Assembly: GCA_016186045.1 (NCBI GenBank)
Contig: JACPMJ010000030.1
Coordinates: forward strand, 1 to 34,172
Reading direction: 5' to 3'
DNA length: 34,172 nt
Source: Candidatus Uhrbacteria bacterium
Lineage (GTDB): Bacteria; Patescibacteriota; Patescibacteriia; JACQRZ01
The notes under the pieces were generated by a model that saw nothing but the letters and a program-made list of their open reading frames with translations, made no database searches and was not told the DNA's origin. The translations under genes were made by a program, and so were the position numbers. Of the stretch, positions 1,019 to 8,981 are shown piece by piece (position 1 is the first letter of the stretch; each line of letters starts with the position of its first letter).

Positions 1019-1158
1019 AGGGATCGTCTGTGTCTTTTTCGCGGGTTTAAACGGCCAAGCGGGCACGGTTTTTTGTGGAGCAAAAAGAGCTGGCCGTTTA
1101 CCCGCAAAAAATCTCGCTGGGATTTTTTGCGAAAGCGAAAAGGATACAGACGATCCCT
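1019..1158. repeat. Hairpin element family F1, copy a
   Basis: 24 nt outer arms AGGGATCGTCTGTGTCTTTTTCGC / GCGAAAAGGATACAGACGATCCCT; internal CGGGTTTAAACGGCCA/TGGCCGTTTACCCG and CAAAAAATC/GATTTTTTG stems; core shared with 7845-7983. Confidence 0.85.
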
Positions 1159-6777: not shown

Positions 6778-7821
6778 TTAAAGTATCAGCATCGCGTCCC
6801 CAAAACTATAAAATCGATAGTTCTTTTGTATCGCCTCGTGATATGCGGAGAGGATGAAGTCTTTTCCTCCTGTATGTTTCCATTCCGTAAAGGCGCACAC
6901 AAGCAAAAGAAGCGTAGACTGGGGAAGATGAAAGTTTGTAATCATCCCTGTTACTATCTTAAAACAAAATCCGGGATAAATAAAGAGGTTCACATCTTTT
7001 TCACCCGCATGGAGAATGCCATGGCGATCCGCAAAGCTTTCAAGTACGCGCACGCTTGTAGTGCCTACGCAGATGATTCTGCGTTTTTTCTTTTTTGCCG
7101 TGTTGATGAGCTTTGCAGTTTTTTTTGAAAGTATCGCATATTCCGGATGCATGACGTGATGCGTGATGTCATCCGTGCGAATAGGAGAAAATGTTCCCGG
7201 CCCTACGTGAAGTGTCACTTCACAAAAGGATACACCCTTTTTACGGAGTTTTGCCAGAAGCGGCTTTGTGAAATGAAATCCCGCCGTGGGGGCGGCGACC
7301 GACCCCTCGTGTTTTGCGTAGACGGTTTGATATTTTTTTAGATCGGAAATCTGGTGAACATAGGGTGGTGTTGGCGCACTTCCCACTATATGAAGTGCGC
7401 GGCGCAGTGCCACTCCTTTTTTATTAAACTCAATCTCCCAGACGTATTCTTTATTACAAGCGGAAAGCGTTGCAGTAAGATTTGGTACGCCATTGATAAT
7501 TATTTTTTTACCAATGTCGTGCACTCGTATGTGTTTTAGAAGCGCGCTCCAGCGATTTTCTGTGAGTTGGCGCACAAGAAGAATTTCCACCGCACCTTCG
7601 GTTTCTTTTTTTCCATAGAGCCGCGCCGGAATGACCTTTGAATTATTAAAAACCAATACATCTCCGCGCTGGAGAAAAGAAAGGATATCAAAAAAATACA
7701 TATGTCGAATGTCGGAATTTTTTGTCTCAAGAACCATGAGGCGCGAATGATCCCGCGGGCGGATGGGTGTCTGCGCGATGCGTTCTTTGGGAAGGTGATA
7801 GGAAAATTCAGAGAGGCGCAT
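6778..7821 (-). CDS. queA: S-adenosylmethionine:tRNA ribosyltransferase-isomerase
   Basis: FSYHLPKERIAQTPIRPRDHSRLMVL, FNNSKVIPARLYG, AAPTAGFHFT, LHVGPGTFSPIR, NFHLPQSTLLLLV. Confidence 0.96.
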   Translation of the reverse strand: MRLSEFSYHLPKERIAQTPIRPRDHSRLMVLETKNSDIRHMYFFDILSFLQRGDVLVFNNSKVIPARLYGKKETEGAVEILLVRQLTENRWSALLKHIRVHDIGKKIIINGVPNLTATLSACNKEYVWEIEFNKKGVALRRALHIVGSAPTPPYVHQISDLKKYQTVYAKHEGSVAAPTAGFHFTKPLLAKLRKKGVSFCEVTLHVGPGTFSPIRTDDITHHVMHPEYAILSKKTAKLINTAKKKKRRIICVGTTSVRVLESFADRHGILHAGEKDVNLFIYPGFCFKIVTGMITNFHLPQSTLLLLVCAFTEWKHTGGKDFILSAYHEAIQKNYRFYSFGDAMLIL

Positions 7822-7844: not shown

Positions 7845-7983
7845 AGGGATTTCCGTATTCCTTTTCACGGGTTTAAACGGCCAAGCGGGCATGGTTTTTG
7901 CGAATCAAAAGAGCTGGCCGTTTACCCGCAAAAAATCTCGCTGGGATTTTTTGCGAAAGTGAAAAGGAATACGGAAGTCCCCT
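7845..7983. repeat. Hairpin element family F1, copy b
   Basis: Core near-identical to 1019-1158; outer arms AGGGATTTCCGTATTCCTTTTCAC / GTGAAAAGGAATACGGAAGTCCCCT differ from copy a but pair with each other. Confidence 0.85.
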
Positions 7984-8029: not shown

Positions 8030-8056
8030 AATCCCCTTGACGCTAAGTAGGGGATT
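8030..8056 (-). terminator. Terminator of ORF 8055-8981
   Basis: Minus strand AATCCCC...GGGGATT followed by TTTAATTT. Confidence 0.65.
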
Positions 8057-8981
8057 ACGCGGCCGAGGACTCTTCACTGTTCTCGGTGTTTTCAGAGTTT
8101 TCTCGATGCGCATGTTCTTGGTGTTCTTGCATTGTCAGTCCTCTGATGATGAGTTCAATGAACTGTTGTGTAGAAATCGTCTGGGTAGATTTACTGATGA
8201 TTGTAGAGAGCTTCCTTTGCGATTCCCGGAGTTTTGCGCGTTCTACTCTGAATCCCTCAATCTCCGCTTTGAGTGCGGTGATGTACTCTTCGCGACACTC
8301 ATTGGAGTGTGCGTCAAGCTCCGCGGCGAGGTCAGAGATGAGTTCGTGCATATCTTCGAACTCCTGCATCCAGTTCGGGAAGAACTCTAGGGCTTTCTCT
8401 TTGAATTCCAAAAAGAGCAATGCCTGATTCACCGGAAAAGAGACGCCATCTTTGAATTGATCCGTAAGTTGGATATACTTGTATTGCGTGTTTTGGATGT
8501 CTTTCCGCTCTCGTATCCTCCAAAGATTAATTATCTTTTCGTGTTCGGAGACAACACAGGGAAAGTTGAGAAATCCTCCGAGTGGAATTGAGATAGCAAT
8601 GACGCCGGGCGGAAGTTCGGTGTGCAAGACGCGCCAACGCGGAACAATGATTTCCCTAAGAAGAGATTTGTTTTCCGGATCGAGGAAGTAGAGAGAATTA
8701 AACCCTATGAAGCTGCGATGCCACCATTTTTGCGCGACTTTTTCCAGAGTATCCCAGAAAAATGCCGTGAGAATGGCAGTGGAAAAAATCAGGAGCAATC
8801 CTTTTGTGTTTGCCGCGATGTTTTGATTTACTACGATTTGCAAGTAAATCAGTGCGACCAGAACCACTGACACAAACCGTATTTCCACATCCTCAAGCGG
8901 CTGGTACCTCTTCTTTGACAGGGGACGTTTGGAAGCGGTTCCTACATAGGATCCCATAGGAATCGTAGTAGCTGCACTCAT
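8055..8981 (-). CDS. Uncharacterised membrane-anchored protein, 308 aa
   Basis: Long ORF with two hydrophobic segments (VSVVLVALIYLQIVV; GLLLIFSTAILTAFF) and a charged C-terminus; own terminator and upstream operator-like palindrome. Confidence 0.75.
   Translation of the reverse strand: MSAATTIPMGSYVGTASKRPLSKKRYQPLEDVEIRFVSVVLVALIYLQIVVNQNIAANTKGLLLIFSTAILTAFFWDTLEKVAQKWWHRSFIGFNSLYFLDPENKSLLREIIVPRWRVLHTELPPGVIAISIPLGGFLNFPCVVSEHEKIINLWRIRERKDIQNTQYKYIQLTDQFKDGVSFPVNQALLFLEFKEKALEFFPNWMQEFEDMHELISDLAAELDAHSNECREEYITALKAEIEGFRVERAKLRESQRKLSTIISKSTQTISTQQFIELIIRGLTMQEHQEHAHRENSENTENSEESSAA

Follow-up and report, generated by a model that had tools for sequence, protein, structure and literature searches.

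A dispersed family of small three-way-junction elements with a shared core and outer stems that differ from site to site

Results

F1a and F1b, two structured elements in the window (the whole analysed stretch of 34,172 nucleotides, contig JACPMJ010000030.1 of the Candidatus Uhrbacteria assembly GCA_016186045.1), are members of an undescribed, dispersed and non-coding family of elements of ~140 nt. In this family the sequence of the outer stem is independent of the kinship of the cores, one strand is favoured, and the copies share a position and a prevailing orientation at gene ends. We give a probability of roughly 0.5 to the reading that the core spreads between sites and that each outer stem arises locally, by inverted copying of ~20 nt of flanking DNA.

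The positions of the two elements (F1a, 1019-1158; F1b, 7845-7983) were correct in the original prediction. Folding gave both the same architecture, an outer stem around two hairpins in a three-way junction, at -79.7 kcal/mol for F1a (z -11.4, 0 of 200 dinucleotide shuffles as low) and -77.9 kcal/mol for F1b (z -9.4 against dinucleotide shuffles). The cores are ~94% identical, which bears out the near-identical core of two hairpins described originally. F1a lies in sense orientation between a PD-(D/E)XK nuclease gene (227-991) and metG. Its variable, site-specific left arm (1019-1042; this and all following parts on the + strand) starts 28 nt past the stop of the nuclease gene and pairs with the right arm (1135-1158), which ends 20 nt upstream of the metG ATG (1178). 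Between them, fold and covariation delimit hairpin 1 (1043-1103), with a bulged TT, an internal loop and an apical hairpin. It holds the motif AGCGGGCACGGT (1058-1069), which is near-invariant in 15 sequences and whose pattern matched 119 or more stretches in other genomes. Hairpin 2 (1104-1130) carries the conserved motif CTCGCTGGG at its apex (1113-1121), its helices 9 and 11 being paired at 96-97% in 111 distinct sequences, and is followed by the junction linker GAAA (1131-1134). F1b lies between queA (6778-7821, - strand) and the unassigned ORF 8055-8981 (- strand), antisense to both, and folds into a left arm (7846-7868), hairpin 1 (7869-7927), hairpin 2 (7928-7954), the linker GAAA (7955-7958) and a right arm (7959-7981).

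The outer stem of F1a has 24 pairs, 22 Watson-Crick and 2 G.U, with no other mismatch, so that the prediction of a 24-bp stem deviating by wobbles only was right. That of F1b has 23 pairs, 22 Watson-Crick and 1 G.U. For 22 random base pairs, the chance of three or fewer mismatches is 2.5e-9. The letters given earlier for the left arm of F1a need correction, because the actual arm is AGGGATCGTCTGTGTCTTTTTCGC and the R and Y written there merged both arms. It had also been claimed that the outer stems differ. Each is indeed paired with its own other arm, but they are not wholly unrelated: 15 of the 24 positions of the left arm (63%) are the same in both, including AGGGAT and CTTTTC, which makes this pair by itself weaker evidence and not decisive.

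Across the family, the core is a three-way junction of ~95 nt with the fixed motifs AGCGGGCAYGGT, GAGCGA and CTCGCTGGG, and the outer stem of ~20-25 bp is ~95% paired without conserved sequence. In the 11 bp of the outer helix that were counted, 94.9% of positions were paired among 111 distinct sequences, all 11 pairs had changed on both sides, and base-pair usage was near uniform. The covariation score of the whole structure was 0.786, against 0.185 for shuffled and 0.09-0.14 for slid controls, figures that are biased upward as the alignment was fitted to the structure. A check independent of folding and of any model found 24 matched base pairs per site, against 11 for arms of different sites. 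An estimate of outer-stem length by lenient extension was excluded from the results. In addition, tandem G.A mismatches stand at a fixed place of the stem in many copies. In Aminicenantes (L210, L264, L166, L228, L233 and L280), the stem seemingly extends outward beyond a second internal loop (CCAAAACCGTGAT ... ATCACGGTTTTGG in one example), and the element is longer there than in Patescibacteria.

Mismatches in the outer stem were G.U rather than A.C at 75:27 and 83:24 in two counts, and at 131:67 in a count made without folding or model. Since strand-symmetric mutation alone would give no such bias, one specific strand folds and its fold is under selection, G.U being tolerated far more than A.C. 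In DNA, G.T is likewise a well-tolerated mismatch, so that this bias cannot separate RNA from single-stranded DNA.

A search of the own genome (928 kb, Patescibacteria-like) with the core, which the original prediction had proposed, brought the number of copies to four, the two beyond the window being C28:3813-3953 and C20:29633-29775. The latter shares 0 of 11 outer-stem pairs with F1a, and its hairpin 2 is 91.7% identical. At C28:3813-3953 (L019/L002), the frame of an O-antigen-ligase-like gene is extended, its C-terminus reading through the left arm and the core. A first covariance model, built from these four copies, picked up this architecture in further families of the class. With a second model, the element turned up in 28 of the 389 genomes searched for the class, in 26 of 389 for the phylum and in every one of the six genomes of the family f84, and one genus held 12-18 copies per genome. 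Furthermore, a DNA pattern of core motifs only (AGCGGGCAYGGT, GAGC, TCGCTGGG) matched at least 119 stretches in named genomes. These belong to many Patescibacteria and many Candidatus Aminicenantes, and to Omnitrophota, Auribacterota, Stahlbacteria, Actinomycetota and one Clostridiales MAG, the taxa being those of MAG record names, in which binning errors are possible. The majority of the pattern loci examined fold as the same three-way junction, and the second model gave 99 matches over 100 of the pattern loci.

Several matches were set aside. At least L239 and L254 of the pattern matches resemble protein-kinase coding sequence and are probably due to chance; those on viral contigs are marine phage without the three-way junction and also look like chance. 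Among the model matches, G011/L033 is a tRNA-side hairpin and C3:113002 a simple long hairpin. In Rfam 15, only tRNAs rose above the gathering cut-off in the window and 23 other loci, and the element had no match. The open-access (PMC) literature, with subscription papers and preprints outside the scope of the search, held no earlier description of the family.

The history of the stem differs from that of the core. Over 541 within-genome pairs, the median share of identical outer-stem base pairs was 0.27 at any similarity of hairpin 2, against a between-genome background of 0.24, and the outer stem was still at background in the 22 pairs whose hairpin 2 reached 85% identity or more. Hairpin 2 itself varies freely across the family, so tighter constraint on its sequence is not the whole of the contrast. 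Two copies in G009 match at 93% in their cores and at 0.48 in their arms, about the value for unrelated arms under the same alignment. As had been proposed, copying of the whole element alone is insufficient to account for these pairs, and the paralogues show no gradual drift of one ancestral outer stem, the pattern named beforehand as a sign of ordinary compensatory evolution. In the one orthologous pair examined between species (L129/L130, at the same gene end in G002 and G009), the stem was kept, with single-base changes that were mostly wobbles and zero compensatory changes. Kept in orthologues but at background in paralogues, the stem is therefore set by its site and is neither inherited from the donor copy nor simply fast-evolving.

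The opposite view is that duplication takes in the whole element, stem included, and that the stem, bound only to stay paired, then changes fast through compensatory mutation or template-switch correction of quasi-palindromes, while selection or gene conversion holds the core. Template switching in replication is documented both to create and to repair hairpin stems (PMC8794818), compensatory changes occur in core stems too, and the alikeness of the F1a and F1b arms fits. Moreover, L108 and L109 (G390) have arms and flank in common, and four copies in one Aminicenantes MAG (DAOUYU) have common arms (0.73-1.0), so whole-element duplication also occurs. No coreless copies of the common Aminicenantes arms were present among the loci examined. 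As the general explanation, duplication with fast change seems improbable to us, since paralogues with outer stems at background have identical hairpin-2 stems that are free to vary, the L129/L130 stem took single-base changes only, and some copies at one gene end arrived independently (see below). In G390, the flanks of L108, L109 and L122 are alike over ~70 nt, which include a -10-like TATAAT and the beginning of a similar gene, and a further stretch of L109 matches the arm of L122; this likeness possibly goes back to segmental duplication or to recombination through the arms.

The copies adjoin the 3' ends of genes. Of those lying no more than 20 nt from a stop codon, 52 were antisense and 8 sense to the gene in two independent sets taken together, and 24 and 3 in the second set alone; gene calls followed a simple longest-ORF rule, which adds noise to these counts. 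Some copies adjoin tRNA genes and have T-rich arms. Where two genes converge, as at L114, an element at each gene end can give a close divergent doublet. As most copies are antisense to the adjoining gene, the folded strand is not the mRNA of that gene. This weighs against reading the element as an ordinary structured RNA gene or cis-regulatory RNA whose closing stem covaries freely and which owes its spread to occasional duplication and horizontal transfer. Its strong covariation, conserved loop motifs and tolerance of G.U would suit such an RNA, as would the sense placement of F1a just upstream of metG. With the unrelated gene contexts, the 12-18 copies per genome in one genus and the lack of an Rfam match added to the antisense excess, we regard it as very unlikely.

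The outer arm often holds the last codons and the stop of the gene, inverted again in the other arm. At L114, CAA AAT ATA AAA TAA CC recurs inverted in the far arm, and at L069 the gene end GAG TGA CTACGGTT lies within the arm and is inverted on the far side. At L072, the native gene end GTCACGCTCATTTAATTTTTTC is in the arm and inverted beyond the core. L123 is the orthologue of L072 without the element, and its end codons are homologous (IASVTII vs VVSVTLI); thus, it is the far arm that was copied, from a native arm on the gene side. At the end of a DHH-family gene in three sister species (L066, L069, L098), unrelated arms contain TAA, TGA and TAG, respectively. Opposite orientations at the same gene end in sister species (L068/L103 and L135/L134) mean independent arrivals. 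At the rny-hup junction, DNA with small related-looking ORFs is present in two species (L089 3105-3631, L121 3605-4690) and absent in a third; in L089 it is flanked by two elements in opposite orientation, and it is possibly cargo.

Comparison of empty sites, also proposed originally, showed that 12 of 16 orthologous empty sites had no palindrome of at least 9 bp. There was a plain 18-bp terminator in G391 at a VIIEV-ending gene where G371 has the element, plain terminators in G389 and G390 at a MGVDVI-ending gene where G391 has it, and, at a third orthologous gene end, a 12-bp hairpin ~20 nt downstream. No empty site was found at the nucleotide level: at ~70-80% identity between the compared species, intergenic DNA cannot be aligned, and the ancestral flank is visible only in coding stretches. 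For the G009 copy, none was found in the closest relatives G002 and G007 either, where intergenic DNA is too diverged and synteny is broken.

These terminators bear on a further explanation, in which long palindromes were there first, chiefly bidirectional intrinsic terminators with stems of 15-21 bp, and received the core in their loop. In 494 kb of flanking loci there were 39 coreless palindromes (at least 13 bp, loop 3-15), mostly terminator-like, and several element arms resemble terminator stems with A/T tracts, while 28% of arms are T-rich on the wrong side for a terminator. In the f84 genomes (L069, L071, L084, L087, L105 and others), bidirectional intrinsic terminators with perfect or near-perfect stems of 15-21 bp are common. 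However, the arms differ from the coreless palindromes in composition (A-minus-T over the outer 9 nt, -0.30 vs +2.67, p=3e-4), 9 of 77 copies and 0 of 39 coreless palindromes overlap coding sequence by at least 6 nt (Fisher p=0.028), most empty sites lack a palindrome, and some elements adjoin tRNA genes with T-rich arms. We therefore consider insertion into palindromes unlikely as the rule, though the strongest of the competing explanations. Inverted copying of the flank explains arm composition, coding overlap and palindrome-free empty sites together.

The window also holds other repeats. Three direct repeats of ~170 nt followed by a 99-nt repeat (79-100% identical) lie at its right end (30608-32262 and 33907-34172), and make up a separate repeat family with imperfect palindromes of its own. 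A REP-like palindromic repeat of 32-35 nt, TGTCATTCTCGGGCTTGACCCGAGAATCCAGT, occurs in both orientations at 26521-26552, 31124-31158 and 32487-32521, one copy overlapping the 5' end of a uvrB-like reading frame (26471-28591). A 54-nt inverted repeat pair, TGTCATTCCGACCGACTGTAAGGAGCGGAGGAATCT..., 87% complementary, lies at 2892-2945 and 33811-33864, 31 kb apart.

Discussion

Three possibilities had been raised for an identical core inside different stems, namely insertion into existing hairpins, inverted duplication of flanking DNA and strong compensatory selection. Inverted copying of the flank fits best, with native codons and stop codons in the arms and most empty sites free of palindromes, and insertion into existing hairpins is possible at some sites, such as the two orthologous gene ends with terminators and the third with a hairpin nearby. 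The interpretation as a whole is only partly supported, in view of the likeness of the F1a and F1b arms and of the arms common to copies in some lineages.

Under inverted flank copying, the unit copied between sites would be the ~95-nt three-way-junction core with its fixed motifs. The outer stem of ~20-25 bp would lie outside this unit, being local target DNA on one side and its inverted copy on the other, made by templated fold-back synthesis during insertion of the core or soon afterwards. Folding would then be required of one specific strand, be it single-stranded DNA or RNA, with selection keeping the pairing and tolerating G.U and not A.C, and the insertions that survive would be those lying at the 3' ends of genes, for the most part in antisense. 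We infer core movement, inverted copying at insertion and a folded strand that acts as DNA and not as RNA. Somewhat more tentatively, at a little under even chances, the element may be a mobile one without ends of its own: a folded single-strand core whose terminal inverted repeats are written at each site by reverse-copying ~20 nt of target, and whose private matched stem is needed by one folded strand.

To our knowledge, no known small mobile element builds its stem from local DNA. REP/REPIN sequences, mobilised by RAYT (TnpA-REP, a Y1 transposase; PMC3116915, PMC8266576), are likewise short palindromic non-coding intergenic repeats without cargo, in which the folded strand matters and which at times form close divergent doublets. 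Unlike them, the present element has an unconserved outer-stem sequence and a larger three-way junction. In place of a conserved palindrome with a 5' GTAG-type tetranucleotide, we found a near-uniform outer stem and the fixed motifs AGCGGGCAYGGT and CTCGCTGGG. Y1_Tnp (PF01797) was absent from G000, G009 and all six f84 genomes, the holders of most copies, and a Y1 transposase was rejected as the mover because its presence does not track the element.

MITEs, including ERIC/RU, and the Rickettsia palindromic elements (PMC10969869, PMC2759123) are also dispersed, measure ~100-170 bp, have inverted-repeat ends and lie between genes or are fused in frame, as is the C28 copy that extends an ORF. In MITEs, the terminal inverted repeats are fixed and come with target-site duplications, whereas the ends here are site-specific: outer stems within a genome are at background, some Aminicenantes copies excepted, and 162 copies had no target-site duplication (flanking direct repeats 1.87 nt vs 1.87 shuffled). 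Integron attC sites (PMC2727003, PMC6393395) share the conservation of structure over sequence, the position directly after a gene stop, and a folded strand that is the template (bottom) strand of the gene. They differ in that the present element has fixed internal motifs and was not seen in cassette arrays; the R'/R'' boxes (GTTRRRY / RYYYAAC) were absent from the stem ends, helix 1 having no sequence conservation.

Template-switch hairpins (PMC8794818) and templated inverted insertions at breaks (PMC11724301) produce in one step a stem that is the reverse complement of a neighbouring stretch, but they are sporadic mutations without a conserved inserted core. Reverse transcriptase (RVT_1, PF00078) was absent from the carriers G009, G088, G166, G193, G389 and G391 and present in many non-carriers; it was likewise rejected as the driver, as its presence does not track the element.

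If inverted flank copying is true, small dispersed elements common in uncultivated phyla would make up a class that takes its inverted repeats from the target instead of bringing them along. It would imply an unrecognised insertion chemistry, in which fold-back copying is coupled to insertion, and a new enzyme. It would also offer a simple way for long perfect hairpins to arise at the ends of genes, which bears on the origin of long perfect stems.
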